From NCBI GenBank assembly GCA_004015825.1, contig SAYS01000004.1, forward strand, positions 180,189-244,188: DNA of 64,000 bases, in the 5' to 3' direction. Position numbers and translations under genes: made by a program. Position 1 is the first letter of the stretch. Each line of letters begins with the position of its first letter. The notes beneath the pieces are model-generated. The model saw only the letters and a list, made by a program, of their open reading frames with translations. It had not been told where the DNA came from and did not search any database. Of this stretch, positions 30,673 through 51,643 are shown one piece after another. Source of the DNA: Halovenus amylolytica. Its GTDB lineage: Archaea > Halobacteriota > Halobacteria > Halobacteriales > Haloarculaceae.

Positions 30673-30682
30673 ACGCTCGGAT

Positions 30683-30756
30683 GCGTGAGGAGTGATTCGA
30701 ACACTCGTTTCGGCCGTGGCACGGCCGCGTGATCTGCCAGACTACACTACTCGCGG
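30683..30756 (-). tRNA. tRNA-Gly(GCC)-like gene, copy 1, degenerate acceptor
   Basis: A 74-nt element 10 nt downstream of the ro60 relic. Anticodon arm CGGCC-GTGCCAC-GGCCG (GCC, U33) and T arm GAGTG-TTCGAAT-CACTC are perfect. The acceptor strands CCGCGAG and CTCACGC pair at five of seven positions. A decoding tRNA is doubtful; a tRNA mimic linked to Ro60 is more likely. Confidence 0.65.
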
Positions 30757-30766
30757 AAAAATTGGA

Positions 30767-32248
30767 CTAGAATGGGTCGAAGCCGTCGATCTCGTCGATG
30801 ACCTGCCCGGGTTCCTCGGCGTGCTCGATGAACTCCAGGACGTTCTCCGACCAGCCCGAGATATTGTAGACGTCCTCGTAGCCGTCCGGCGTCACGAGGT
30901 CGCCGTAGGATGCCAGGTCGATCATATACAGTGACGCCTCCGGCGCAACAGCCTCTCGATACTCGACGAACTCCTCACGGATCGTGTTCGCGTCGTCGCT
31001 GAACCGAACCCGTGAATCCCAGATCTGCATGTCGGTGAATACGACGATTCGGTCCACTGCGATTGCTTCCTCTCTGAGGTATCGCAGGACTCTCCAACCG
31101 TTCGTCGAGTGTCCAACCTCCTCGTCGATCCCAAGCAGTGCATCCTGTCGCTGGAGCACTGGCGCGTCGACGTGCATCGGAACGGTCTGGAAGTCGTCAC
31201 CGAGGCCACCGACACGAGCACCTCGCTCGGCCAGAATCGCCCCGAACAGCGACCCGATCTCCTTCCGCGCGAGGGTGCTGTTCTTGGAGAGAGACGAGTC
31301 CATCGATCCCGAGAGGTCGACAGCAACGAACGTTTCGCCGAGCCCGTCGGGAATATTCTCCACAGAGACATCGATAGCCTGCTCCAGCCAGCGCTCGGCG
31401 GCGGGTGCCTAGATCCCAGCCTGCTGGAGGGCCTTGTACGCCTGGTAGTACCGGAATGGGTACAGCGGTGCGTGCCGGACTGCCTCCAGATCGAGATGAT
31501 CGACAATTACCTCCTCATCGACACCGGCCTGGAGCATGTTCCGCAGGTTCCGGATCGACGCGAGGATCGGCAGCGTGTACTCGTCGTCTTCGATGAGCGT
31601 CTCCCAGGCATCCCGGGTGTTACCCCGCTCGGAGATGACCGTTTCCCAGGTGTTCGGCGACGGAAGTGGCTCCACCTCAGGGTAGTCGTCCAGATCACCC
31701 CGCATGAACCGCTCGAACAGTTCCTCCTGTTGTTCATCGACCGGCTCCGGGTGGACCCTGTTGAACACGTCGTATAGTGTTATCTCTCGCCGGGAGAGGG
31801 TGTATTTGCCGAGCGTGTACGCGTCGGCCATCTCGACGAGCGCATCCTCAATCCCGCGGCGGAGCGGCCACGGGGCCGTCCCACCGAAGAGGTCATCGTG
31901 GACCGCCAGTGCTGTCGCTGTCTCGTCCATCCGCTGGATGATCGCCGGTGTCCACTCGCGGATCAGTGACTCATCCGAGTCGTCTTTGAACCGGTCGTCG
32001 TTGGCCGCCAGGACGAGCAGAACCTGTGGGATATCTCGCAGGTAGAGTTCCTGCCGCGCGTACGCGGCGAGTTTGAGGACGAACTCTGGGTCCTCGTTGG
32101 CTGCTGCGTCGAACCGCTGGACGACCGCAGCGAGATGCTCTTCGTCGGACTCGTAATACGAGTCTTCAAGCAGCTGGTTGATCGTTCGTTTGTACAGTGC
32201 TAGTCGCGGGTCGGCGGGCTCGAAGGCCTCACCACCCTCGTGAGAGGG
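30767..32248 (-). pseudogene. Decayed Ro60/TROVE-vWA gene, copy 1
   Basis: Closely similar along its length to the intact ro60 at 43,235-44,764. Three things break it: the first about 20 codons and the start are missing (homology begins near 32,240 with HEGGEAFEPAD), an amber TAG near 31,409 replaces the Gln codon of QAGIQAP, and no alternative start precedes MDETATALA. Apart from this the frame is open, and the MIDAS motif DLSGSMDS is kept, so decay is recent; amber read-through cannot be excluded from sequence. It is flanked by the same tRNA-like gene and 99-aa gene as the intact locus. Confidence 0.85.
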
Positions 32249-32527
32249 TACGTCGACTCAGCGGGCCGGTTCGTGCCGTTCAGGTAAAATCTTTCCCCGT
32301 ATTGCGGTTTGAGCGGTTTGTTCGCTCGTAACAACCGTTGCAAGAAACGCTAGACATATAAAAACCCGGATCATTGCCCCCTGAGCAATCGAAGCTCAGC
32401 GGAATCACGACATGCGATAGTACCCTCGAACAATTTCGCCATCGTTAGGCTGCCCTCAGGCAGCAGTTGACGAAACACACGTACCGCACTAGATTTATTC
32501 ATGTGTAGATCTTACACATCAAATACA

Positions 32528-42179: not shown

Positions 42180-42230
42180 TAATATCACCTCATGAGCGCC
42201 GCGCGGTCAGCCCGCGACACACGCTCGGAT

Positions 42231-42304
42231 GCGCGAGGAGTGATTCGAACACTCGTTTCGGCCATGGCGAGGCCGTGTGATCGGCCAGACTACACTACTC
42301 GCGC
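42231..42304 (-). tRNA. tRNA-Gly(GCC)-like gene, copy 2
   Basis: 74 nt. Acceptor GCGCGAG/CTCGCGC is a perfect 7 bp, T arm GAGTG-TTCGAAT-CACTC perfect, anticodon arm CGGCC-TCGCCAT-GGCCG (GCC but C33 instead of U33). The best-paired acceptor of the three copies. 52 nt upstream of the 99-aa start. Confidence 0.75.
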
Positions 42305-42395
42305 AAAAATGAACCGTAGCTCTGCAGGTTCAATATCATCCGCTCCATGCCTTCTTGGTAGAAAGGTTAACTACGTTCCAGATGCAACTTCACGT

Positions 42396-42671
42396 ATGCC
42401 GACTGCAGTAAAGATGGACGAAGACACGAAGTCGAAGCTTGAAGAGCTACAGGCCGAAATCAAGTTGAAAACCGGGAAGAAGGTCACTCAACAGGAAGTA
42501 CTGTCTCGTCTCGTCGAATCCGCTGTTGAATCACGGTCAGAGTTTATCGATTCGTTCAGGGACACCGCAGTAAGTCTTTCTGACAACGAACTCGCGCAGT
42601 TCAACGAGGGAATGATCGCTTCAGGCGTCGAGACGGATGAGGAGGACATTGACGACATCCTGTACGGATGA
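42396..42671 (+). CDS. Small antitoxin of a PIN pair
   Basis: A 91-residue protein started at ATG 42396 (MPTAVKMDEDTKSKLEEL), a ribbon-helix-helix-like N-terminus (TQQEVLSRLVESAVESR) with an acidic tail (DEEDIDDILYG). Its stop overlaps the toxin start by four bases. The module lies between two copies of the tRNA-Gly-like gene and is opposite in strand to the ro60 locus. Confidence 0.72.
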   Translation: MPTAVKMDEDTKSKLEELQAEIKLKTGKKVTQQEVLSRLVESAVESRSEFIDSFRDTAVSLSDNELAQFNEGMIASGVETDEEDIDDILYG

Positions 42672-43111
42672 GTGTGTTCGTGGATACAGGGGTTTTCTAT
42701 GCCCATCACGATACTGATGCCAGCCGTCACGAGACAGCCGTCGGTGCCCTCAATCGTGTCCTCCAGGCAGCGGAATACGGTCGAGTGATAACAAGCGACT
42801 ACGTGTATGATGAAGTAGTTACGCTCACGCAGCGACGAACTGGATCTGTTGCTGACGGTATTGAGGTCGGAAAGCGAATCCGCGGAGAGGGATATCCCGA
42901 CGCAATCGACATGGTGTACGCGTCGCCCGCGCTTTTTGACACCGCTGTCGAGACGTACGAGACGTACGCGGATCAGGATCTCAGCTTCACCGACGCAATG
43001 ACCGTCGTCATGATCGAACATCACGATATCGATGCCGTGCTGAGTTTTGACGATGACTTCGATGGGGTAATCGATCGACTTGCTCCCGAATCTGTTACTG
43101 ATCAAACCTAA
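42668..43111 (+). CDS. PIN-domain toxin (VapC)
   Basis: A 147-residue protein. PIN acids appear in VFVDTGVFYAHHD (about 3-15), VYDEVVTL (about 53), DLSFTDAMTVV (about 105) and VLSFDDDFDGV (about 127), the full VapC set. Such toxins cleave structured RNA, commonly tRNA anticodon loops. ATGA-coupled to its antitoxin. Confidence 0.82.
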   Translation: MSVFVDTGVFYAHHDTDASRHETAVGALNRVLQAAEYGRVITSDYVYDEVVTLTQRRTGSVADGIEVGKRIRGEGYPDAIDMVYASPALFDTAVETYETYADQDLSFTDAMTVVMIEHHDIDAVLSFDDDFDGVIDRLAPESVTDQT

Positions 43112-43149
43112 CGCGCTCTCAGAGTAGTGGATCTCCGAGTTATGCCGAT

Positions 43150-43223
43150 GCGTGAGGAGTGATTCGAACACTCGTTTCGGCCCTGGCACGGCCGTGTGAT
43201 CGGCCGGACTACACTACTCGTGC
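43150..43223 (-). tRNA. tRNA-Gly(GCC)-like gene, copy 3, directly after ro60
   Basis: 74 nt beginning 11 nt after the ro60 stop. Anticodon arm CGGCC-GTGCCAG-GGCCG (GCC, U33), T arm GAGTG-TTCGAAT-CACTC. Acceptor GCACGAG/CTCACGC pairs at five of seven. Same strand as ro60, so it must be in its 3' transcript unless separately transcribed. Confidence 0.68.
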
Positions 43224-43234
43224 AAAAAATTGGT

Positions 43235-44764
43235 CTAGAATGGGTCGAACGAATCGATCTCGTCGATGACCTGCCCTGGCTCTTCGGCGTGCTCGATGAA
43301 CTCCAACACGTTCTCCGACCAGCCCGAGATGTTGTAGACATCTTCGTAGCCCTCGGGGGTAACGAGGTCGCCGTAGGATGCCAGGTCGATCATGTACAGT
43401 GACGCCTCCGGCGCGACAGCCGCTCGATAGTTGTCGAACTTCTCACGGATCGTGTTCGCGTCGTCGCTGAACCGAATCCGTGAATCCCAGATCTGCATGT
43501 CGGTGAAGACAACGATTCGGTCCACTGCGATTGCTTCCTCTCGGAGATGTCGCAGGGCTTTCCAGCCGTTGGTCGAGTGTCCAACCTGCTCGTCGATCCC
43601 GAGCAGTGCGTCCTGTCGCTGGAGCACTGGGGCGTCGACGTGCATCGGAACGGTCTGGAAGTCGTCACCGAAGCCGCCGACACGAGCACCTCGCTCTGCC
43701 AGGATCGCCCCGAACAGCGACCCGATCTCCTTTCGCGTGAGGGTGCTGTTGTCGGAGAGATGGCTGTCCATCGATCCTGAAAGGTCGACAGCGACGAACG
43801 TTTCACCCAGACCGTTGGGCACGTGCTCCACGGAGACATCGATTGCCTGCTCCAGCCAGCTCTCGACGGCGGGGGCCTGGATACCAGCCTGCTGGAGGGT
43901 CTTGTACGCCTGGTAGTACCGGAACGGGTACAACGGCGCGTGTCGGACCGCTTCCAGGTCCAGGTGGTCGACAATCACCTCCTCGTCGACGCCAGCCTGA
44001 AGCATGTTCCGCAGATTCCGGATTGACGCGAAGATTGGCAGCGTGTACTCGTCGTTTTCGATGAGCGTTTCCCAGGCGTCCTGGGTGTTGCCCCAATCCG
44101 AGATGACTGTCTCCCAAGTGTTCGGCGACGGAAGTGGATCTACGTTGGGGTAGTCGTCCAGATCACCCCGCATGAACCGCTCGAACAGTTCCTCCTGTTG
44201 TTCATCGACCGGCTCCGGGTGGACCCTGTTGAACACGTCGTACAGCGTCACCTCTCGCCGTGAGAGGGTGTACTTCCCGAGTGTGTATGCATCAGCCATC
44301 TCGACAAGCGCATCCTCAATCCCGCGGCGGAGCGGCCACGGGGCCGTCCCACCGAAGAGGTCGTCGTGCACTGCCAGTGCCGTCGCCGTCTCGTCCATCC
44401 GCTGGATGATCGCTGGTGCCCACTCCCGGATCAGCGACTCGTCTAAGTCGTCTTTGAACCGGTCGTCGTTGGCCGCCAGAACGAGCAGGACCTGCGGGAT
44501 ATCTCGAAGGTAGAGTTCCTGCCGCGCGTACGCGGCGAGCTTGAGGACGAACTCGGGATCTTCATCTGCCGCGGCGTCGAATCGCTGGACGACCGCAGCG
44601 AGATGCTCCTCATCCGACTCGTAGTACGAGTCTTCGAGCAATTGGTTGATCGTTCGCTTGTACAGTGCGAGTCGCGGGTCAGCGGGCTCGAACGCCTCGC
44701 CACCCTCGTGATTGGTCGTTCGCGTTGCGTCTGCGAGTGTCTGTTTGGTCTCGTTGAATTCCAT
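43235..44764 (-). CDS. rsr: Ro60/TROVE-vWA RNA-binding protein
   Basis: A 509-residue protein started at ATG 44764 (MEFNETKQTL), with GGTGAT just upstream; the track-length extension to 44839 runs through a strong hairpin and is unlikely. Residues about 20-310 match the HEAT-like TROVE ring (LALYKRTINQLLEDSYYESDE; AYARQELYLRDIPQVLLVLAA; PLYPFRYYQAY). The vWA-like domain begins near 315, with the metal-ion site DLSGSMDS near 327-334, conserved T and D later (VVFTDMQIWD). Ro60 rings bind misfolded RNA ends and Y RNAs; in Deinococcus the orthologue Rsr works with PNPase. Here it ends 11 nt before a tRNA-like gene and begins about 90 nt after an RNA array on the same strand. Confidence 0.93.
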   Translation of the reverse strand: MEFNETKQTLADATRTTNHEGGEAFEPADPRLALYKRTINQLLEDSYYESDEEHLAAVVQRFDAAADEDPEFVLKLAAYARQELYLRDIPQVLLVLAANDDRFKDDLDESLIREWAPAIIQRMDETATALAVHDDLFGGTAPWPLRRGIEDALVEMADAYTLGKYTLSRREVTLYDVFNRVHPEPVDEQQEELFERFMRGDLDDYPNVDPLPSPNTWETVISDWGNTQDAWETLIENDEYTLPIFASIRNLRNMLQAGVDEEVIVDHLDLEAVRHAPLYPFRYYQAYKTLQQAGIQAPAVESWLEQAIDVSVEHVPNGLGETFVAVDLSGSMDSHLSDNSTLTRKEIGSLFGAILAERGARVGGFGDDFQTVPMHVDAPVLQRQDALLGIDEQVGHSTNGWKALRHLREEAIAVDRIVVFTDMQIWDSRIRFSDDANTIREKFDNYRAAVAPEASLYMIDLASYGDLVTPEGYEDVYNISGWSENVLEFIEHAEEPGQVIDEIDSFDPF

Positions 44765-44802
44765 GGTATCACCGGAACCGAAACAGGCGGTTCCAATCGG
44801 GT

Positions 44803-44827
44803 GCTGTCCACGGTGTCGGTGGACAGC
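44803..44827 (-). other. Perfect 9-bp hairpin in the ro60 leader
   Basis: GCTGTCCAC and GTGGACAGC with a 7-nt loop, 39 nt before the ro60 start, between it and the tRNA-Arg gene. Could be a processing signal or a control element for ro60 translation. Confidence 0.7.
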
Positions 44828-44852
44828 GGCCAGCCTCATTCGGTCAGCCGGA

Positions 44853-44985
44853 TGCCCTCGGCACGATTCGAACGTGCGACTCCCGGCTTCGAAGGCCGGT
44901 GTCCTCGTGAGGCCAGCGGCCGAACGAGGGCTCGTCAGAGCTCGTCTCTGACGGTGCTCTAAATCCTGACTGAGCTACGAGGGCA
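44853..44985 (-). tRNA. tRNA-Arg(TCG) with insert between D and anticodon arms
   Basis: Acceptor TGCCCTC/GAGGGCA, D arm GCTC..GAGC, anticodon arm CCGGC-CTTCGAA-GCCGG and T arm GCACG-TTCGAAT-CGTGC are all perfect. About 55 extra nt (44900-44954) sit after position 26 and fold as two hairpins, GTCAGAG/CTCTGAC and CCTCGT/ACGAGG. Confidence 0.85.
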
Positions 44986-44986
44986 C

Positions 44987-45123
44987 GATGGCCGGAAAAC
45001 TGCTGGAGCCAGAACAGCGTGCTACCAGGTTACACTACGGTGGATCAATACATTCCACCGCCGGGATTCGAACCCAGACCTCCGGCTCCTGAGGCGAAGG
45101 AAGGCTCCAGCTCGACGGCCATC
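44987..45123 (-). ncRNA. Y RNA-like RNA 1 with permuted tRNA mimic
   Basis: Stem I GATGGCCG/CGGCCATC; 5' loop TCGA (45112-45115) opposite 3' loop AGTTTTC (44995-45001); stem II GCTGGAGCC/GGCTCCAGC, 9 bp; then TTCCTTC. Inside, a T arm CTGGG-TTCGAAT-CCCGG (45061-45077) is followed by a capped acceptor stem CGGTGGA, a 9-nt loop and TCCACCG, then a D-arm-like TAGTGTAACCTGGTAGCAC. This is the order of a circularly permuted tRNA, as in bacterial YrlA RNAs. No protein frame fits. Confidence 0.82.
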
Positions 45124-45132
45124 TGATGAGTG

Positions 45133-45279
45133 CGGTGACCGAAAAACTATCAAGGCGGGAGCCGGTGTCGAGAGGAACATATCCTCTCTTTGTCCAGGGT
45201 GTTCTCGATGGAAGCGCCACCGACAGGATTTGAACCTGCGAGTTCCTGGCGAAGTAACACCTCGATTCGCCGGTCACCG
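45133..45279 (-). ncRNA. Y RNA-like RNA 2
   Basis: Stem I CGGTGACCG/CGGTCACCG; loops GCGA and AGTTTTT; 9-bp stem II ATCGAGGTG/CGCCTTGAT (two wobbles); then TTACTTC. Interior: T arm GCAGG-TTCAAAT-CCTGT, capped stem TCGGTGG-CGCTT-CCATCGA, and a hairpin GAGAGGA-TATGT-TCCTCTC in place of a D arm. The core matches RNA 1 with different stem sequences. Confidence 0.8.
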
Positions 45280-45286
45280 AATGAGT

Positions 45287-45428
45287 CGTGGCGACCGAAA
45301 AACTGCCAGAGCGGGCCCAGTCTCGGGGTGCCCCAAGACTCGACATCATGACAGGCCCCGTGGCCTGCCACTGGGATTTGAACCCAGAGTACCATTCGAA
45401 GGAACGCTCTGACTGAGCGGTCGCCACG
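45287..45428 (-). ncRNA. Y RNA-like RNA 3
   Basis: Stem I CGTGGCGACCG/CGGTCGCCACG, 11 bp perfect; loops CTCA and AGTTTTT; 9-bp stem II GTCAGAGCG/CGCTCTGGC; then TTCCTTC. Interior: T arm CTGGG-TTCAAAT-CCCAG, capped stem GGCAGGCC-ACGG-GGCCTGTC, then a 10-bp hairpin AGTCTTGGGG/CCCCGAGACT. Confidence 0.82.
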
Positions 45429-45436
45429 ATAACTGC

Positions 45437-45518
45437 GTGGCCGGGAAACAGACAGAGCGATCTGTGGGATTTGAACCCACCTAATGCCGGTGAAGGAACA
45501 CTCTGTCTCGCCGGCCAC
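45437..45518 (-). ncRNA. Y RNA-like RNA 4, minimal
   Basis: Stem I GTGGCCG/CGGCCAC; loops GCGA and TGTTTCC; 9-bp stem II GACAGAGTG/CGCTCTGTC; then TTCCTTC. The interior is reduced to a T arm GTGGG-TTCAAAT-CCCAC with no D-like arm, the shortest tRNA mimic of the set (82 nt). Confidence 0.78.
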
Positions 45519-45524
45519 AGTGAT

Positions 45525-45605
45525 GGAATCGACGCCGGAAAACTGGTGCCGAGTGCTGCTTGCTGTGGAGTTGAAGTATCTCGGCTCCTCGACGGCATCG
45601 ATTCC
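45525..45605 (-). ncRNA. Y RNA-like RNA 5, no tRNA mimic inside
   Basis: Stem I GGAATCGATGCCG/CGGCGTCGATTCC, 13 bp; loops TCGA and AGTTTTC; stem II GGAGCCGAG/CTCGGCACC with one A-A mismatch; then ATACTTC. The interior is a short single-stranded or weakly paired 20-nt loop. Spaced six nt from RNA 4. Confidence 0.82.
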
Positions 45606-45607
45606 GG

Positions 45608-45645
45608 AGTGCTCCCGAGGGGAATCGAACCCCCTGTCAACTCAA
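45608..45645 (-). other. tRNA 3' fragment or capped T-arm remnant
   Basis: T arm GGGGG-TTCGATT-CCCCT followed by CGGGAGCACTCCGG, which pairs back on itself. It starts right after the HNH gene stop. No matching 5' half is found upstream of the HNH gene, so it is a relic, or the tRNA-mimic part of RNA 5 placed outside its stem. Confidence 0.5.
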
Positions 45646-45647
45646 TC

Positions 45648-46250
45648 TTAATCGGAAGCAATCTCCAGATCTCCCACCTCCACTTTTCGATGACATCTCC
45701 GACAAAGACAGATCACGTTGTCCAGCCTGTGTGCTCGCTCGGGGTCGTCATACTTTCTAACAGGAACGATGTGGTGGACATCCGGTTCTTGTCCGATTTC
45801 GGGGCGAGTTGTACCACAAGACTGGCACGTATGATTGTCACGTTCGAGGGCTCGCCGTCTTACTTTGGCCCAAGAGCCAGTGTACTCAACTTCGACTCCA
45901 CCACTCCACATGGGGTTCCCATCGTTTCGCGTCCTCTCCGACCACCATATCTTGAAGCAATCCCGGGAACAGAACCGGTTATCACGATACGTTCGATACG
46001 TCTCGCCGCAATAATCGCACGATTTCTTGGGTTTCCCGCCTTTCCAGTTCGGATTGTCTTTTCCGGATGGTGTTGTCGGCGGATCACACTCTTTGCAGTA
46101 CGTTTGCTTCGAATCTTCGTCGTAGAACTGTATGCCACATGACTGGCAGGTGCGGTTAGGGAGCTGTTCATCGTGAGCACCGTAGTGATGAATTCGCATC
46201 CCGTGTTTAGTATCGAACTCGTCTTCACACGTTGGACATTCTGCCGTCAT
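45648..46250 (-). CDS. HNH endonuclease with zinc fingers, inside the RNA array
   Basis: A 200-residue protein started at ATG 46250 (MTAECPTCEDEF). Three C2-type finger pairs (CPTC..; CQSCGIQFYDED..CKEC; CDYCGETY..CSRDC) precede a C-terminal HNH domain: CQSCG, HHIVPVRKYDD, NVICLCRRCH. HNH proteins of this make-up are often homing endonucleases. It lies within the minus-strand RNA array, its stop abutting a tRNA-like T arm, so it may have entered by targeting a tRNA-like sequence. No intron or intein boundaries are evident. Confidence 0.85.
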   Translation of the reverse strand: MTAECPTCEDEFDTKHGMRIHHYGAHDEQLPNRTCQSCGIQFYDEDSKQTYCKECDPPTTPSGKDNPNWKGGKPKKSCDYCGETYRTYRDNRFCSRDCFKIWWSERTRNDGNPMWSGGVEVEYTGSWAKVRRRALERDNHTCQSCGTTRPEIGQEPDVHHIVPVRKYDDPERAHRLDNVICLCRRCHRKVEVGDLEIASD

Positions 46251-46774
46251 TAATCCTCTTAGTGAGGTTTGATTCCCGATTCCCGAATAAACTTTCGTGC
46301 TGACCCTTCCTCTGTTCCGAGAGTGCTGTAAGGAACAATTCAAGCACCCAATTACGCTGGACACGCATAGGTCAACGCAGCCGTTCGAAGCCCTTGATCT
46401 GCCCGTGTGTGAACATCACATGGTGGGGCCTCGAAAGAGTGTTTGAGTCCGAAACCGGTTGGTAGTCATCACGTTCAATCTTGCCGTCGTGGATTCGGTT
46501 CCGACAGCCGGCCACTTAGAGGAGATATTCTCGTTGACGTCATTAAGACTCGTTTATGATTGGTCTCCGGCAGGACCACTTCGGTGACCCACTCCTCTTT
46601 GAGAGGCCGACCGTCAGCCGTAATCCGAAATGTTGTCATGCTTGATCAATCAATACCTTTCGTCTACCAGTCTACATCCTCTGCTAGAACCACTGCATCG
46701 GGATACTCCAGGAGCAAGCCAGTATATGCCGGGACCAAAGGGTCCCGAGGCCGGCCTCATCTCGGTCGGCCGGA
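46251..46774. other. Spacer without supportable gene or tRNA
   Basis: About 520 bases between the HNH gene and tRNA-Asn. No complete tRNA or Y-type core is seen. AGTGCTGTAAGGAACAATTC near 46,324 faintly recalls the RNA motif TTCCTTM on the minus strand but lacks the stems. Confidence 0.4.
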
Positions 46775-46775
46775 C

Positions 46776-46848
46776 GCCTGGAGAAGGAGTCGAACCTCCC
46801 ACGATCACGGTAACAGCGCGACTCCCCCACCACGGGGGACTTCCAGGC
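46776..46848 (-). tRNA. tRNA-Asn(GTT)
   Basis: Full cloverleaf: GCCTGGA/TCCAGGC, D TCCC/GGGA, anticodon TCGCG-CTGTTAC-CGTGA, T GGAGG-TTCGACT-CCTTC; discriminator G. Canonical lengths. Confidence 0.9.
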
Positions 46849-46905
46849 AAAGGAGGGCCGACGGGAGTTAGCAAACACTCTGTTGTTGCTATCTACATCA
46901 GGGGA

Positions 46906-46925
46906 CGGATCGCGTAGCGATCCAA
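46906..46925. other. Short hairpin between tRNAs
   Basis: GGATCGC-GTA-GCGATCC, perfect 7 bp, between tRNA-Asn and tRNA-Lys. Possibly a processing or termination hairpin. Confidence 0.5.
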
Positions 46926-46926
46926 A

Positions 46927-46998
46927 GGGCCCGACGGGATTCGAACCCGCTATCCTTGGATTAAAAGTCCAGTGCCTGTCCTCATAGGCTCCGGGCCC
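46927..46998 (-). tRNA. tRNA-Lys(TTT)
   Basis: GGGCCCG/CGGGCCC, D GCCT/AGGC, anticodon CTGGA-CTTTTAA-TCCAA (one C-A pair at the base), T GCGGG-TTCGAAT-CCCGT. Confidence 0.9.
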
Positions 46999-47002
46999 GC
47001 AT

Positions 47003-47075
47003 GCGCCGACCCAGATTCGAACTGGGGCTTCTGGCTTGGAAGGCCAGCGTCCTGACCAGACTGGACTACCGGCGC
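47003..47075 (-). tRNA. tRNA-Gly(TCC)
   Basis: GCGCCGG/TCGGCGC, D GTCC/GGAC, anticodon CTGGC-CTTCCAA-GCCAG, T CCCAG-TTCGAAT-CTGGG. Confidence 0.9.
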
Positions 47076-47089
47076 TATTACGAAGAGTG

Positions 47090-47164
47090 GACGCTGGAAA
47101 ACTAGCGATGAGAGGCAGTCGTACTGCAAGTGCAGTCGAAGTATCTCATCACTTGGACGGCGTC
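47090..47164 (-). ncRNA. Y RNA-like RNA 6
   Basis: Stem I GACGCCG/CAGCGTC (one C-A mismatch); loops TCCA and AGTTTTC; 9-bp stem II AGTGATGAG/CTCATCGCT; then ATACTTC and an inner hairpin ACTGCA-CT-TGCAGT. It lies in the gap between tRNA-Thr and tRNA-Gly. Confidence 0.8.
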
Positions 47165-47222
47165 ATCGAGATTGCGGGCGATTTCGGCGCCATACCAGAT
47201 TGAAATCTGATGACACCTTGGC
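47165..47222 (-). other. tRNA-like remnant upstream of Y RNA-like RNA 6
   Basis: GCGGG..CCCGC closes a segment with a T-arm-like ATCAG-ATTTCAAT-CTGGT and a capped GGCG/CGCC stem. The following AATCTCGATGACGCCGTC aligns with the bases before RNA 5, so RNAs 5 and 6 share this upstream module. Confidence 0.5.
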
Positions 47223-47233
47223 TATACCCGCAG

Positions 47234-47304
47234 GCCAGCAGGGCGATTCGAACGCCCACTACCGCCTTACAAGAGCGGCGCTCTACCAGTTGAGCTATGC
47301 CGGC
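47234..47304 (-). tRNA. tRNA-Thr(TGT)
   Basis: GCCGGCA/TGCTGGC, D GCTC/GAGC, anticodon CCGCT-CTTGTAA-GGCGG, T GGGCG-TTCGAAT-CGCCC. Confidence 0.9.
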
Positions 47305-47308
47305 GAGG

Positions 47309-47380
47309 GCCGGGTCCGAGTCTCGAACTCGGAGCTCGTCCGTCACAGGGCCGAAGGTTGCCAGTTACCCCAACCCGGCC
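47309..47380 (-). tRNA. tRNA-His(GTG)
   Basis: GCCGGGT/ACCCGGC with encoded G at -1 and discriminator C, the His identity pair. Anticodon CGGCC-CTGTGAC-GGACG, T CCGAG-TTCGAGA-CTCGG. Confidence 0.92.
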
Positions 47381-47437
47381 ACAGCTGATTCGTCTATTCG
47401 AGTAATCAGAGAAACCATCTCACTCGACACCACAGAA

Positions 47438-47576
47438 GCCGCGGGTCGGATTCGAACCCCGCCCAGACATGCTCACTTCGTTGCGCGTGTCTGGTCTGCT
47501 CTGGAAATCGCGGATTTCCAGACCGACGCGATCCTGCTCTGCAGGCAGGTGCGTTCGACCACTCTGCCACCGCGGC
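47438..47576 (-). tRNA. tRNA-Cys(GCA) with insert in the T arm
   Basis: GCCGCGG/CCGCGGC; anticodon CCTGC-CTGCAGA-GCAGG. The T stem GTCGG/CCGAC is perfect only if 66 nt (47457-47522) between its 5' strand and the TTCGAAT loop are removed. The insert forms TCTGGAAATC/GATTTCCAGA and CCAGACA/TGTCTGG. Confidence 0.87.
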
Positions 47577-47581
47577 CAATG

Positions 47582-47702
47582 GACACCCCCGGGAATCACG
47601 CGAGCACAGCGAGCGTGATATCGTCGGACCGAGTCCGACGGAAGTCGAACCCGGAGCCTCCCGCTTGCAAAGCGAGCGCTCTGCCAGTTGAGCTAGGGGC
47701 CC
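47582..47702 (-). tRNA. tRNA-Ala(TGC) with insert after the T loop, weak acceptor
   Basis: D GCTC/GAGC, anticodon CTCGC-TTTGCAA-GCGGG, T CCGGG-TTCGACT..CCCGG split by 49 nt (47594-47642) that fold as CGTCGGAC/GTCCGACG and ATCACGC/GCGTGAT. Acceptor GGGCCCC pairs poorly with GGGTGTC. Confidence 0.75.
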
Positions 47703-47723
47703 ACAGTCGGGGCTCTGCCAGAT

Positions 47724-47793
47724 GGACACACGAGGATTCGAACCTCGATTGCCGCCATGTAAGGGCGGTGTCGTGCCATTGGACCATGCGTCC
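47724..47793 (-). tRNA. tRNA-Val(TAC)
   Basis: GGACGCA/TGTGTCC, anticodon CCGCC-CTTACAT-GGCGG, T CGAGG-TTCGAAT-CCTCG. D stem three pairs. Confidence 0.88.
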
Positions 47794-47798
47794 ATGAT

Positions 47799-47941
47799 GG
47801 GCACGGGAGGACTCGAACCAGAGCCAGACGTGCTCGCTTCGCTGTGCACGTCTGGCAGGACTCGGAAATCGTTAAGCGATTTCCGAACCACCGAACTGCC
47901 CCGTTATCAGCGGGGCCCTCTGCCGTCTGAGGTACGCGCCC
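47799..47941 (-). tRNA. tRNA-Ile(GAT) with insert in the T arm
   Basis: GGGCGCG/CGTGCCC, D CCTC/GAGG, anticodon CCCCG-CTGATAA-CGGGG. 70 nt (47818-47887) lie between GGTGG and the loop TTCGAGT; they form TCGGAAATCG/CGATTTCCGA and an 11-bp GCCAGACGTGC/GCACGTCTGGC. Confidence 0.85.
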
Positions 47942-47946
47942 GTGAT

Positions 47947-48018
47947 TGGCAGGGAAGGATTCGAACCTCCGATCTCGCCGATGTCAGCAGCGCGTCCACT
48001 CCACTGGACTGCCCGCCA
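47947..48018 (-). tRNA. tRNA-Val(GAC)
   Basis: TGGCGGG/CCTGCCA, D GTCC/GGAC, anticodon CGCTG-CTGACAT-CGGCG, T GGAGG-TTCGAAT-CCTTC. Confidence 0.88.
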
Positions 48019-48019
48019 T

Positions 48020-48091
48020 ACTCCCGCAGGGATTCGAACCCTGGACCAGTCGGTTAGAAGCCGACTGCTCTGTCCCCTGAGCTACCTGTGT
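48020..48091 (-). tRNA. tRNA-Arg(TCT), acceptor mismatched
   Basis: D GCTC/GAGC, anticodon GTCGG-CTTCTAA-CCGAC and T CAGGG-TTCGAAT-CCCTG are perfect, but ACACAGG and CGGGAGT hardly pair. The mobile element next to it may have altered the 5' end. Confidence 0.7.
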
Positions 48092-48103
48092 CAGCGAGAG
48101 AGT

Positions 48104-48169
48104 CCCGCCCTTCCCGTGAGGAACGAGCGTTCCGACACGCTGTCGGAACTGAATAGCGAACAGGGCGGG
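48104..48169. repeat. Long imperfect hairpin at the left side of the TnpB element
   Basis: CCCGCCCT/AGGGCGGG outer arms and a perfect inner GTTCCGACA-CGC-TGTCGGAAC. Subterminal hairpins are usual for IS200/IS605-type ends. Confidence 0.6.
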
Positions 48170-48304
48170 CGTGAATCGTGTACGGTCCGGTGAGATACCG
48201 CCGCGTTACTGCCTGTCTTGCGTCTCAACCAGCCAGCGTCAGTTCCACTTTCACTGTGGGTGGCTACCTTTCAATATGTCCCTGTTCGAACACCTACTCA
48301 GGCG

Positions 48305-49645
48305 ATGAAGCGAACCAACACGTTCACCGTGCGACCGCTCTCCGATGACGGGGAGCAACTGCTACGGGACCTGTTGGACGCTTCTGCCGCTCTCTGGAAC
48401 GAAGTCAACTATCAGCGCCTCATGCGGTACAACGACGAGGACGAGGACGTTTGGGACGCCGATACAGGCCAACTGGAAGGCCGATACAAAGGCGCTCTCG
48501 GTGCGTCCACCGCCCAACAGGTCATATGGACAAACACCGAAGCCTGGCGCGGGTTCTTCCAGAACAAACAAAAGTACCACGACGAGTCGAACACGTCGGT
48601 AACGGACCACCCAGAGCCACCGGGCTTCCGTGGCAACGAGGACAAGGGACGCCAACTCAAGACAGTCATTCGAAACACATCGTACACCGTCGAATGGGGC
48701 GAGCGGTCCCGGCTTGAGATACTCGTCGGGAGCGAGTTGAAGGACCGATACAACCACACCGGGCGGCTCCGGTTGGAAATCGCTGGCGACCCAAATTGGC
48801 CCGACTACGAGAAACAGGGCCGCCTTGATCTGTGGTACGACGAGACAGACAGCACCTTCCGAGCTTCGCAGCCTGTGACTGTTTCTGACGATGCACAGGC
48901 AACTCCATTGGCCGACGAGACGGCCGCTCTGGACATTGGTGCAAACAATCTTGTCGCTTGTACCACGACGACCGACGAGCAATACCTGTACGAAGGCCGC
49001 GAGTTGTTCCAGCGATTCCGTGACAAGACGCGAGAAATCGCCCGGTTACAGTCGAAACTCGAAGAAGGCTGCTACAGTAGTAAGCGCATCCGGCGACTGT
49101 ACCGCAAGCGAACCCGTCGCCGGGACCACGCGCAAGAGGCACTGTGTCGTGACTTGCTGGAGCGACTGTACACCGAGGGCGTGGACACGGTGTATATCGG
49201 CGGGTTGACCGACGTACTAGATACACACTGGTCGATCGAAGCAAACGCGAAGACGCACAACTTCTGGGCGTTCAAGCAGTTCACTGAACGACTCGCCTGT
49301 ACCGCCGAGGAGTACGGGATTTCCGTCGAAGTGCGGTCGGAAGCGTGGACCAGTCAAGAGTGTCCCCAGTGTGGTTCGACAGACCGAACGACACGGCAGC
49401 AGGACACGCTCACCTGTCCGTGTGGCTTCGAGGGGCACGCTGACCTTACAGCGTCAGAAACGTTCCTGAGACGGCACACCGAGAAGGCAGTCAGGCCGAT
49501 GGCACGGCCCGTGCGGTTCGAGTGGGACGACCACGACTGGTCGGGGATCTCACACCCTCACGAACGTCCCAAAGAACAGCGCACAGATCTGAGTACCGTC
49601 CACCGTGACGGGAATGTTGCCTCCGGGGAGTCGTCGACCGGCTGA
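48305..49645 (+). CDS. tnpB: TnpB, RNA-guided nuclease of the transposon
   Basis: A 446-residue protein started at ATG 48305 (MKRTNTFTV). The RuvC-like core has the first Asp in [10 protein letters not shown] (about 215), a zinc ribbon CPQCGS...CPCG (about 365-388) and the last Asp in GHADLTASE (about 394). The middle catalytic Glu expected in a (V/I)xxExL strand is replaced: [10 protein letters not shown] has Gly there. It may be cleavage-defective, or use a shifted residue. TnpB promotes element retention by cutting donor joints under guide-RNA control. It lies antisense to the tRNA cluster. Confidence 0.88.
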
Positions 49646-49700
49646 GATTCCCACGGAGGAAACCGCGCCGTGAACGGTGCGGAGGATGTCATGGGAGTAT

Positions 49701-49843
49701 GCTCCAGCCCATATTTGAACCACAGCCAGACGGTCGCTCACATTCGTTCGCGCTGCGAATGGCAGGGCTCGAAAACCGCTGGTTTTCGAACCAGGTGCTC
49801 GGCCTCGAGAGGGCCGTGAGTTTGGCCACTACTCCACTGGAGC
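49701..49843 (-). tRNA. tRNA-Glu(CTC) with insert in the T arm
   Basis: GCTCCAG/CTGGAGC, D GAGT/ACTC, anticodon CGGCC-CTCTCGA-GGCCG. T arm CCTGG...TTCAAAT-ATGGG is mostly wobble, split by 71 nt (49720-49790) forming a 12-bp GGTTCGAAAACC/GGTTTTCGAGCC hairpin and a second, CATTCG/CGAATG. Confidence 0.8.
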
Positions 49844-49880
49844 TGAACCATGGCAGGTGACGCACTCGCGTGCGTCGAGT

Positions 49881-49951
49881 CTCCCCGGCACGATTCGAAC
49901 GTGCGTCTCCTCCTCTACAGGGAGGTGTCGTAGCCGCTGGACCACGGGGAG
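49881..49951 (-). tRNA. tRNA-Tyr(GTA)
   Basis: CTCCCCG/CGGGGAG with the archaeal Tyr C1:G72 pair; anticodon CCTCC-CTGTAGA-GGAGG; T GCACG-TTCGAAT-CGTGC. No intron. Confidence 0.92.
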
Positions 49952-49972
49952 TCAGGCTGCAGCACTCGGGAT

Positions 49973-50112
49973 ACCGGGGAAAACTGTGGAAGAACTGGTC
50001 ACGGCCGGAGTCTCCGACCGTTGACGCCGAGGTTTTCCATCCCTGGCGGCGGCCCAGCACCCGTCGTCCCGTCCGCGTGGTGGAACGAAGTATTTCTTCC
50101 ACTCGACCCGGT
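49973..50112 (-). ncRNA. Y RNA-like RNA 7
   Basis: Stem I ACCGGG (50107-50112)/CCCGGT (49973-49978); 5' loop TCGA (50103-50106); 3' loop AGTTTTT plus one C; perfect 9-bp stem II GTGGAAGAA (50094-50102)/TTCTTCCAC (49987-49995); then ATACTTC. The interior of about 85 nt is GC-rich with GCC repeats and no tRNA-like loop. It lies alone between tRNA-Tyr and tRNA-Ala, far from the other six. Confidence 0.82.
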
Positions 50113-50216
50113 TTCAGCGCCACAGAGAGTGCAGCAGTGAGAGCGCCGACCGCTACCATCGTTTTGACAGCAGCAACAGTGGCGACTGTGAGAACAGTCC
50201 ACCGGTCGGCGCGAGT

Positions 50217-50289
50217 GGACCCGGCGAGACTCGAACTCGCAGCTTCCGTCTTGCGAGGACGGCGCTCTGCCGAATTGAGCTACGGCCCC
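50217..50289 (-). tRNA. tRNA-Ala(CGC)
   Basis: GGGGCCG/CGGGTCC (one G-G), D GCTC/GAGC, anticodon CCGTC-CTCGCAA-GACGG, T GCGAG-TTCGAGT-CTCGC. Confidence 0.87.
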
Positions 50290-50318
50290 AGACGCGATGG
50301 GTACAGGTCTTATCTGAT

Positions 50319-50392
50319 CGCGGGACCAGGATTTGAACCTGGATCTGCTGGTCATGAGCCAGCCGGGATCGGCCAAGCTACCCAATCCCGCG
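50319..50392 (-). tRNA. tRNA-Met(CAT)
   Basis: CGCGGGA/TCCCGCG, anticodon GCTGG-CTCATGA-CCAGC, T CCAGG-TTCAAAT-CCTGG. The D region recalls an initiator, but the C1:G72 pair does not; no intron, unlike many haloarchaeal elongator Met genes. Confidence 0.82.
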
Positions 50393-50397
50393 TCGAT

Positions 50398-50479
50398 GTC
50401 GCCGCGAGGATTCGAACCTCGGCAGGACCTACGCCGGTGGTCCTGAGCCACGCCCCTTTGGCCGCTTGGGTACGGCGAC
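50398..50479 (-). tRNA. tRNA-Leu(CAG)
   Basis: GTCGCCG/CGGCGAC, anticodon CGTGG-CTCAGGA-CCACC, long variable arm, T CGAGG-TTCGAAT-CCTCG. Confidence 0.9.
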
Positions 50480-50527
50480 ACGCAAAAGCGAAGACAGGGA
50501 ATCGATTGCCAGCACAGTGGCTGGCAT

Positions 50528-50609
50528 GCCGCCACGAGGATTCGAACCTCGGTAGGACCTGTGCCAACGGCCCTCAACCGTCTCCCTTTGGCCACTTGGG
50601 TATGGCGGC
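50528..50609 (-). tRNA. tRNA-Leu(GAG)
   Basis: GCCGCCA/TGGCGGC, anticodon GACGG-TTGAGGG-CCGTT, long variable arm, T CGAGG-TTCGAAT-CCTCG. Near-duplicate of the Leu(CAG) gene. Confidence 0.9.
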
Positions 50610-50614
50610 ACAGT

Positions 50615-50743
50615 ACCGCGGGCAGGATTCGAACCTGCGAAAACCTACGTAGCGGGTCTTAAGCCCACCGACGGACCAGTCCGTCGAGCCCTGCCTCGCT
50701 CCACTCGGCAGGACGCAGCCTTTGACCACTTGGCTACCGCGGT
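50615..50743 (-). tRNA. tRNA-Leu(TAA) with insert between D and anticodon arms
   Basis: ACCGCGG/CCGCGGT, anticodon GTGGG-CTTAAGA-CCCGC, long variable arm, T GCAGG-TTCGAAT-CCTGC. About 47 nt (50670-50716) follow the D stem and fold as CCTGCC/GGCAGG and CGACGGAC-TG-GTCCGTCG. Confidence 0.87.
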
Positions 50744-50746
50744 AAT

Positions 50747-50816
50747 GAGTACGGACCGAATTGAACAGCCATCTCCTGCTTTGGAGGCAGGTGTCTTGCC
50801 GTTGGACCACGCACCC
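50747..50816 (-). tRNA. tRNA-Trp(CCA), intronless
   Basis: GGGTGCG/CGTACTC (wobbles), anticodon CCTGC-CTCCAAA-GCAGG, T GGCTG-TTCAATT-CGGTC. Haloarchaeal chromosomal tRNA-Trp genes normally carry a large guide-RNA intron in the anticodon loop; this one has none. Confidence 0.85.
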
Positions 50817-50820
50817 ATGC

Positions 50821-50906
50821 GGCGGGAGAGTGATTCGAACACTCGTGTCCGTCGTGGACACCGCGGTTCCAGTGCGGTCCCTTGGCCAGACTAGGGGAAT
50901 CCCGCC
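50821..50906 (-). tRNA. tRNA-Ser(GGA)
   Basis: GGCGGGA/TCCCGCC, anticodon CCGC..CTGGAAC..GCGG, variable arm GTGTCC/GGACAC, T GAGTG-TTCGAAT-CACTC (identical to the Gly-like genes). Confidence 0.88.
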
Positions 50907-50909
50907 GAC

Positions 50910-50990
50910 GGTGAGACGGAGAGTCGAACTCCGAAACCTCGCGGCTCTCGATTTCAAATCGAGCGCGGTCACCTGTCCGCATGTCTCACC
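50910..50990 (-). tRNA. tRNA-Ser(TGA)
   Basis: GGTGAGA/TCTCACC, D GCGG/CCGC, anticodon CTCGA-TTTGAAA-TCGAG, T CGGAG-TTCGACT-CTCCG. Confidence 0.9.
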
Positions 50991-51031
50991 AGTCTGTTCT
51001 GTAGATTTCTCGCACCTGCCGAAGGCAGGAC

Positions 51032-51113
51032 GCCGTGTCTCGGAGTCGAACCGAGAACCCGTCACCGGGGCTGACGTAGCAGGTCAGTGAGGTCACCGAT
51101 CCTCAGACACGGC
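51032..51113 (-). tRNA. tRNA-Ser(GCT)
   Basis: GCCGTGT/ACACGGC, D GAGG/CCTC, anticodon CTGAC-CTGCTAC-GTCAG, variable arm CCC/GGG, T CTCGG-TTCGACT-CCGAG. Confidence 0.9.
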
Positions 51114-51117
51114 AAGT

Positions 51118-51258
51118 GGGCCGATGAGGATTCGAACCAGAACCAGACGGTCTCTCACTACGTTCGCGCTGCGTCTGGTAGAGCCCAGATTCGCTTGCGA
51201 ATCTGGACCTCAGTCTCGTGCACCCAAGGCACGGATCGTGCCACTGGACCATCGGCCC
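51118..51258 (-). tRNA. tRNA-Pro(TGG) with insert in the T arm
   Basis: GGGCCGA/TCGGCCC, anticodon CGTGC-CTTGGGT-GCACG. Removing 71 nt (51137-51207) restores a perfect T arm TGAGG-TTCGAAT-CCTCA. The insert forms CCAGATTCGC-AA-GCGAATCTGG and CCAGACG/CGTCTGG. Confidence 0.9.
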
Positions 51259-51488
51259 GCAAGGGCTGCCGTCGCTCGGCAGCTAGTTGTCGATCTATGC
51301 GTCTGCGTGTGCAATGGGAATCATGCGCCCATCGCACACAGGAAGGCGTACTTCGGATGTCCCGGGAATACCACATCGGACCATGTCGGTTGTAGACCCT
51401 GCCGGGCCCAGCAGTCAGTCGATGGCGGACATCGACCGGCTGCTGCCGACCTCGATGGGTATCCCCAGCGTGTCTTCCACGCCAATAC

Positions 51489-51560
51489 GCCGACGTCGGG
51501 ATTTGAACCCGAGTCACGGCCGTGACAGGGCCGCATGCTGCCGGACTACACCACGTCGGC
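51489..51560 (-). tRNA. tRNA-Asp(GTC)
   Basis: GCCGACG/CGTCGGC, anticodon CGGCC-CTGTCAC-GGCCG, T CTCGGG-region with loop TTCAAAT and CCCGA. Confidence 0.9.
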
Positions 51561-51568
51561 TGGCTGAT

Positions 51569-51643
51569 CGCCCCGGCCGGAATCGAACCGGCGACCTCTG
51601 GATTCAAAGTCCAGCGTCCCTCGCCAGCGGAGACTCCGGGGCT
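51569..51643 (-). tRNA. tRNA-Gln(TTG), first gene of the array
   Basis: Acceptor GCCCCG/CGGGGC (six pairs; first position unpaired), anticodon CTGGA-CTTTGAA-TCCAG, T GCCGG-TTCGATT-CCGGC. The 5'-most tRNA of the minus-strand array. Confidence 0.85.

Follow-up and report, generated by a model that had tools for sequence, protein, structure and literature searches.

The sequence analysed, referred to below as the window, is a 64,000-nt stretch of the Halovenus amylolytica genome (GCA_004015825.1, contig SAYS01000004.1, positions 180,189-244,188; window numbering starts from 1). A ro60 gene, a tRNA-Arg(TCG)-like gene, five closely spaced structured elements (M1-M5) and a tRNA gene array were found on its minus strand, with two further elements of the same kind (M6 and M7) lying between tRNA genes of the array (Table 1). 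Haloarchaeal tRNA clusters with a TROVE gene are already known from the accessible portion of PMC6333295, which describes the same setting, with TROVE in 20 of 29 archaeal clusters and links to mobile elements, but in which a non-coding RNA beside the TROVE gene is not described. Borg elements likewise encode TROVE proteins, according to the available parts of PMC9605863 and PMC11208441. An HNH endonuclease gene (45651-46250, minus strand) is located between the tRNA array and M1.

Table 1. Coordinates of the features discussed, in window numbering unless a locus of a relative is named
Feature	Position	Strand	5' / 3' loop	R1 score (bits)	Remarks
ro60 (TROVE + vWA)	43235..44764	-			predicted partner; Pfam, profile and fold match
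tRNA-Arg(TCG)-like gene	44853..44984	-			between Y array and ro60; 57-nt insert before anticodon stem
M5	44987..45123	-	TCGA /	163.4 (M5 itself among the model's sequences)	full YrlA-like RNA; member nearest ro60
M4	45133..45279	-	GCGA / AGTTTTT	47.5	~147 nt
M3	45286..45429	-	CTCA / AGTTTTT	56.1	~144 nt
M2	45435..45520	-	GCGA / TGTTTCC	44.1	~83 nt
M1	45525..45605	-	TCGA / AGTTTTC	31.8	short Y-RNA-like element; stem I ~13 bp
tRNA gene array	46772..51643	-			holds M6 and M7
M6	47090..47164	-	TCCA / AGTTTTC		short element between tRNA genes
M7	49972..50113	-	TCGA / AGTTTTC		142 nt; between tRNA genes, adjoins tRNA-Tyr
tRNA-Thr-like with Y-stem insert, beside TROVE	L101:2215-2339(-), L102:614-735(+), L103:2517-2639(-), L104:2628-2753(-)
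Y-armed tRNA-shaped RNAs, among others	L043:10916-11041(+), L045:11019-11144(+), L078:4716-4845(-), L080:4728-4821(-)

All seven elements follow one plan, consisting of stem I, a 4-nt 5' loop, stem II, the linker WTMCTTC (ATACTTC, TTCCTTC or TTACTTC in M1-M5), a variable interior of 19-93 nt, the second strand of stem II, a 7-nt 3' loop and the second strand of stem I. At least six of the seven loop-adjacent positions of stem I are paired in every member, and the nine positions of stem II are fully paired in six members, including M7, and in eight of nine positions in M1. The earlier note on this DNA, made from the letters alone, had described five consecutive minus-strand elements with a shared stem, loop and linker plan and perfect or near-perfect pairing. 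This description holds, with stem II paired 9/9 in four of M1-M5 and 8/9 in M1, except that the spacing, given there as 5-9 nt, comes to 4-9 nt once stem I is extended to its full length by eye. A strict descriptor scan of the 64-kb window, in which the 3' loop was required, returned exactly seven matches, M1-M7, which fits the seven members mentioned in the earlier note, compared with 12 in total, and at most one per shuffle, when the window was shuffled 100 times under a first-order Markov model; as the descriptor was written after the members had been seen, such shuffle controls gauge chance pairing only. A looser scan without the 3' loop returned the seven and five others, which show no excess over shuffles (2-8 matches in each of 10).

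The protein adjoining the array is Ro60, as the earlier note had assumed, with both TROVE (2.8e-19, 70 bits, cut-off 23) and vWA_Ro60 (7.9e-7, 29.6 bits, cut-off 27.7) above the Pfam cut-offs. A profile of eight Ro60 homologues reaches human RO60, and the nearest solved relatives by sequence are 9l5y and 9kop, the former titled as the Ro60 dimer from Thermus phage phiLo. When a model predicted from eight sequences (mean pLDDT 74) was used in a fold search, the best matches were a TROVE domain structure, phage phiLo Ro60, Deinococcus Rsr (2nvo) and vertebrate Ro. The fold is similar to those of phiLo Ro60 and D. radiodurans Rsr, at ~24% and ~17% identity, respectively, in the fold alignment, with 9l5y and 9kop closest and 2nvo next.

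A second ro60 copy is present at 32251-30770 (minus strand) with 93% identity, lacking the first 15 residues and containing an in-frame TAG; no Y element was found beside it in the descriptor scan. The stretches 30679-32251 and 42227-44764 (minus strand) each contain ro60, a small ORF that is similar in the two, and tRNA-Gly(GCC). Near the ro60 copies there are three tRNA-Gly(GCC) genes that resemble one another (42227-42305, 43147-43224 and 30679-30757, minus strand), and in 34 of 43 loci of relatives a tRNA-Gly(GCC) gene follows downstream of ro60. A PIN-domain gene (42405-43111, plus strand) and the small ORF preceding it, possibly a toxin-antitoxin pair, are situated between ro60 and one tRNA-Gly gene.

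The strict descriptor was also applied to 47 ro60 stretches and the window (48 sources), which gave 97 matches compared with two in one shuffle of each; five of the 97, with interiors longer than 150 nt (overlapping calls or chance), were excluded from the classes. Strand and distance were counted over 44 ro60 loci, comprising 43 fetched stretches and the window, with the short or partial L081-L084 among the 47 left out. All 95 matches in these loci are on the same strand as ro60 and none is on the opposite strand, a count that includes four overlapping second calls and one chance-looking match ~2 kb downstream of a ro60. A Y element is located no more than 1.5 kb upstream of ro60 in 42 of the 44. 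Of the two exceptions, L077 has an element whose 3' loop is a variant that the strict pattern does not match and that other searches caught, and L080 has no element in the free-Y topology. A generic structure-only scan of six non-haloarchaeal loci gave 0, 2, 0, 0, 2 and 0 matches, with shuffle means of 0.9, 0.35, 0.7, 0.2, 0.6 and 1.25, and no clear excess.

Searches across genomes were carried out with model R1, a covariance model of 16 M5-type elements, exclusively from haloarchaea, that was built with the D-arm helix as shifted by RNAalifold and not in the tRNA register. Alignment A1 comprised 16 of 17 class-B matches (M3 was excluded), and alignment A2 excluded L048 and L049, each near-identical to another row, and L083, in which the element is truncated by the contig end. 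Using the window Ro60 as query, Ro60 matches were obtained in 48 of the 391 genomes of the class, of which 43 have a near-full-length ro60 and five have fragments or weak matches (G061, G100, G156, G380 and G387). R1 at E<=0.01 also gave matches in 48 of the 391 haloarchaeal genomes. At E<1e-3 there were 40 (all 4.3e-9 or better), every one in a genome with a near-full-length ro60, equating to 40 of 43 full ro60 genomes versus 0 of 348 others (Fisher p ~1.6e-51, a value that ignores shared ancestry and a single travelling cassette). The remaining eight R1 matches (E 0.0036-0.0099) are all in genomes without a ro60 match, and six of them span model positions 27-65 only, the T-arm part. Among named records, 39 haloarchaeal ro60 loci (four on three plasmid records) and one from a Dependentiae bacterium were found; hosts of the cassette in this set include Halorussus marinus LYG-36, Haloarcula amylolytica JCM 13557 and Halorubrum ezzemoulense DSM 17463. 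R1 matched upstream of ro60 at E<=1e-9 in 39/39 of the haloarchaeal loci; these overlap the R1 training set, and several are the same contigs as in the 391-genome set, so the two counts are not independent. Within the H. amylolytica genome R1 matches were confined to this locus (M5, M3 and M4), with M6 and M7 not recovered in the R1 search. Close spacing in a mobile cassette means that physical linkage could account for part of the co-occurrence. At L077, where Ro60 is 71% identical, 33 nt separate the element from the ro60 downstream of it, and the 16-kb stretch yielded no tRNA gene; this speaks for a link to ro60 more than for one to the tRNA array. Three loci on viral contigs encode distant Ro60 proteins (30-31% identity) and gave no R1 match at E<=0.01 and no YrlA match at E<=0.1.

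Covariation was assessed in 21 sequence-aligned M5 orthologues. Placing the D-arm in the tRNA register gave pairing in 97.4% of cells and two-sided changes in 63 cells, compared with 23.6 +/- 3.4 in shuffles and no more than seven when partners are slid. In RNAalifold's own register, the values are 96.3% and 62 two-sided changes; its D-arm helix is shifted off the tRNA register, which pairs better (98.8% vs 94.4%). The two-sided changes are located in stem I, stem II, the T-arm and the acceptor, and at one pair in the D-arm. A pairing-blind test of stem II was also performed, in which 86 of 102 5' motifs had a reachable 3' loop motif, 76 of them distinct. The 9-mer before the 3' loop pairs at 9/9 positions in 52 of the 76 and at 8/9 in nine (61/76), versus 16.5% and 25.6%, respectively (42% together), when stems were swapped between elements. 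Across paralogues, stem sequences diverge while the loops and the pairing are kept. The earlier note had named a lack of covariation in homologues as evidence that would count against it and had proposed a covariance-model search of haloarchaeal genomes; the two-sided changes in the M5 orthologues and the results of that search, run with an M5-type model, support its view of the elements as Y-RNA-like, probable partners of Ro60, as does the whole-model YrlA alignment described below.

A feature unnoticed in the first reading is a tRNA-like module, present fully in M5 and in part in M2-M4. Following the Y stem, M5 has a T-arm (5 bp, 7-nt loop), a 7-bp acceptor hairpin, two bases and a D-arm. 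Judged from its sequence and predicted fold, M5 is a circularly permuted tRNA mimic, opened between the D and anticodon arms and with a loop linking the two ends of its acceptor. Bases of the tRNA elbow, namely TTCGA in the T-loop, GG in the D-loop and a T, an A and an A at what we take to be the places of tRNA 8, 14 and 15, are invariant or nearly so across M5 orthologues. A 4-bp hairpin that is a candidate anticodon-like arm has all of its pairs in just 7 of the 21. In M3 and M4 the T-arm and acceptor-like hairpin are kept and the D-arm is replaced, by a third hairpin in M3 and by an arm with an ACAAAG / CGACA internal loop in M4. M2-type elements contain a T-arm at most (GTGGGTTCAAATCCCAC in the interior of M2), and no tRNA-like part was seen in M1, M6 or M7, including any T-arm in M7. 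Throughout the M4 class (e.g. L057:4279-4428(-)), the D-arm replacement keeps this asymmetric internal loop strongly conserved, with changes in the flanking stems.

The closest known RNA is bacterial YrlA, described in the accessible part of a review (PMC8394870) as an RNA of 90-150 nt whose large 5'/3' stem serves as the tether for Rsr and whose tRNA-like domain is the binding site of PNPase. The Rfam YrlA model (RF02553) aligns to M5 over positions 1-114 of 114 with 40.6 bits (E 7.3e-7 in 2.8 kb), below the gathering cut-off of 69 bits; among relatives, YrlA falls on the element in 4 of 13 loci with 28.6-32.4 bits (E<=0.5), also under the cut-off, while the other nine have no Rfam YrlA entry there at the same threshold (E<=0.5). 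As in YrlA, the 5' and 3' ends of M5 pair into a terminal stem that contains an internal loop, followed by a T-arm, closed acceptor and D-arm in permuted order, and the gene adjoins ro60/rsr (42/44 loci and 39/39 named haloarchaeal loci). The terminal stem is found in all seven members, whereas the D/T/acceptor domain is found in M5 and its orthologues, is partial in M2-M4 and is absent from M1, M6 and M7. The haloarchaeal RNAs differ from the Rfam layout in having a stem II of 9 bp and 4/7 loops with UCGA / AGUUUUC, and M5 has 15 nt more between stem II and the T-arm than the Rfam consensus. They also differ in forming an array with up to five adjacent paralogues, several without a tRNA head, and in that the PNPase partner was not found in the haloarchaeal host genome. 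In structure and setting M5 is YrlA-like; with its score below the cut-off, it is not a formal member of RF02553. In the Dependentiae locus (L156), R1 gave 47.0 bits at 5515-5652 and 36.8 bits at 5657-5795, ~2.2-2.5 kb upstream of Ro60, and Rfam YrlA gave 36.7 and 34.8 bits at 5664-5792 and 5825-5930, below cut-off. Eukaryotic Y RNAs (RF00019) also have a terminal stem that binds Ro60, according to the available portion of PMC11277228, but the archaeal array region yields no match to that model, as RF00019 was not found in 44800-47600 at E up to 10. Over the array, Rfam at E up to 10 returned tRNA and tRNA-Sec matches, a YrlA match on M5, a single weak YrlA match on tRNA genes, and further low scores.

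Taken on structure and setting, the elements are likely to be Y RNAs that form a divergent, YrlA-like archaeal family. Several other readings of the tRNA-like heads and of the array were weighed. The heads could be decoys that shield the tRNAs of the cassette from tRNA-cleaving toxins or anticodon nucleases, with Ro60 merely stabilising them, and this would suit a cassette that is patchy and that some relatives have on plasmid records; the authors of PMC7790460, in the part of that paper available, bring up the possibility that YrlA acts as a competitive inhibitor. We regard this reading as unlikely, since the heads range from a full mimic to none and conservation is poor in the anticodon arm, where such cleavage usually occurs. 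Much less probable still is that the elements belong to a mobile element as structural repeats and simply accompany ro60, a reading to which the patchy distribution (48/391 genomes), the plasmid copies and the ~80% identity of Ro60 across families lend themselves. The strand is, however, fixed, as is the place upstream of ro60 in 42/44 loci; the stems of paralogues diverge while loops and pairing persist, and H. amylolytica itself has R1 matches at this locus only.

The T-arms of M2-M5 might alternatively mark the elements as decayed tRNA genes of the array, and in the accessible text of PMC6333295 tRNA genes annotated as pseudogenes are reported in almost all archaeal tRNA clusters. Decay of this kind is very hard to reconcile with stems I and II and both loops being conserved and covarying across genomes, with elbow bases in the D-loop and T-loop that would not survive it, with M1, M6 and M7 keeping the plan without any tRNA part, or with the L077 element, which sits beside ro60 where no tRNA array was found. 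The archaeal splicing motif is the bulge-helix-bulge. We give equally little credence to the elements being circularly permuted tRNA genes that are spliced to normal tRNA, for although the order in M5 (T-arm, closed acceptor, D-arm) is that of a tRNA permutation, the 4/7 internal loop, flanked by helices of 8 and 9 bp, appears unlike that motif, an anticodon arm is not clearly retained and the stem is common to members without tRNA parts.

The preferred reading, to which we assign a high probability, is that the seven elements encode Y RNAs that would bind the neighbouring Ro60 through stem I, the 4-by-7 loop and stem II and whose variable heads would recruit other RNA-handling factors. The Y stem would lie on the outer side of the Ro60 ring and gate it, and the tRNA-like head may act as a tether for a second factor, as in bacterial YrlA, with members lacking such a tRNA-like head serving as plain gates. 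A tethered partner would steer Ro60 to defective (pre-)tRNAs from the array. No RNase_PH domain was found in the H. amylolytica genome (one draft, 57 contigs, 99.98% complete; control genomes were positive in 12/14), so PNPase, the partner of YrlA in bacteria, appears to be absent, as does an exosome core, and the head would need another partner. One RNB-domain (RNase R-type) exonuclease is encoded, which makes RNase R or tRNA processing or modification enzymes the likeliest candidates, the choice of partner being a guess. If haloarchaea do lack PNPase, the one tether partner of bacterial Y RNA that is well studied, they allow the purpose of the tRNA-like head to be addressed in isolation.

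The opposite arrangement, in which a Y stem is carried as an arm of a tRNA-shaped molecule, was encountered outside the window. In another family of the phylum, TROVE is present in 5 of 51 genomes, and four of these five (L101-L104) have a tRNA-Thr-like gene directly upstream of TROVE in which an insert separates the D-arm from the anticodon arm. Folding gives this insert the form of a Y stem with a short closing loop, and its loops (UCUAUU or CCAUU, and UGCA/UGCU) resemble CUUAUU and UGUG of the free Y-like RNA that follows. A 24-base pattern taken from the insert has exact matches only in those four of the 51 genomes; a match with three mismatches in G651 lies inside a 273-aa open frame and lacks the fold. 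In the fifth genome (L093), reading by eye and folding gave the YrlA order, an anticodon-like loop TTGTAA and another two Y-like hairpins; Rfam YrlA scores 33 bits there over positions 27-81.

In the haloarchaea, an inverse-order scan revealed a conserved Y-armed tRNA-shaped RNA in 20 of 44 loci. Its acceptor (GGGACGG/CCGTCCC) has open ends and is followed by a D-arm, the Y arm, TTCCTTC, an anticodon-like arm and a T-arm. The Y arm, a closed hairpin at tRNA position 26, reads CTCTCGCCG - AGTTTTC - ACCGG - tip - CCGGT - GCGA - CGGAGAGAG, and the loops (AGUUUUC / GCGA) and the linker (UUCCUUC) are the same as those of free Y RNAs. In the alignment, 97.6% of cells are paired, with seven two-sided changes versus 1.0 +/- 0.9 in shuffles; the D-arm is the weakest helix (88.4%), and the fold is not always reproduced by ViennaRNA from single sequences. 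The count of inverse-topology sites is by itself weak (76 versus 47 in shuffles for haloarchaea and 7 versus 2 for the other family), and the case for Y-armed RNAs therefore rests on the conserved subset.

A model of the haloarchaeal Y-armed RNA, R2, gave matches of at least 50 bits, a threshold set after the list had been viewed and the only matches counted, in 27 of the 391 genomes, all 27 with a full ro60. These include G055, G255 and G348, which have a diverged Ro60 (53-54% identity) and were all missed by R1, such that a Y-stem RNA is found by R1 and R2 together in 43/43 genomes with near-full-length ro60. At E<=0.01, R2 matched 122 of the 391, mostly in stretches of ~70-85 nt, as ordinary tRNAs would give, and a 125-nt match of 42.9 bits in the ro60-negative G199 proved to be a plain tRNA-Thr. 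The window holds the free Y form only, with no Y-armed tRNA found in it; R2 matches there, 34.3 bits at best, fall on tRNA genes.

On these observations, we lean slightly towards the Y stem being an extra arm that archaea grafted onto tRNA, with YrlA-type RNAs as a circular permutation (Y open, acceptor closed) of the same five-armed fold. Ro60 would then hold real tRNA-shaped molecules as well as mimics, and tRNA surveillance would be the ancestral job of Y RNAs, with a route of origin from tRNA. The occurrence of one tRNA-plus-Y-stem fold in two permutations allows hypotheses on how Y RNAs arose to be put to the test. In the portions of the literature available, Y RNAs are treated for eukaryotes and bacteria, and an archaeal family would extend Ro60-Y RNA particles to the third domain of life. 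Open-access PMC text yielded neither an archaeal Y RNA nor a Y-armed tRNA, and an earlier description elsewhere is possible; within this scope the result agrees with the earlier note, to which no described haloarchaeal Y RNA family of this form was known.

Unusual inserts were also seen in tRNA-like genes of the window. The insert of the tRNA-Arg(TCG)-like gene is absent from five relatives aligned there, and a similar ~57-nt insert, possibly an unusual intron, occurs in a tRNA-Arg(TCG)-like gene at L061:11881-12011(+). Long G+C-rich hairpin inserts are present in the tRNA-like genes at 47437-47576, 47798-47941 and 50614-50743 (minus strand). These three inserts and that of 44853-44984 were folded and, by eye, rejected as Y stems. 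An OrfB_IS605 / Cas12f1-like transposase gene (48302-49642, plus strand) lies within the tRNA array on the opposite strand, on that side of tRNA-Tyr where relatives have the Y-armed tRNA.
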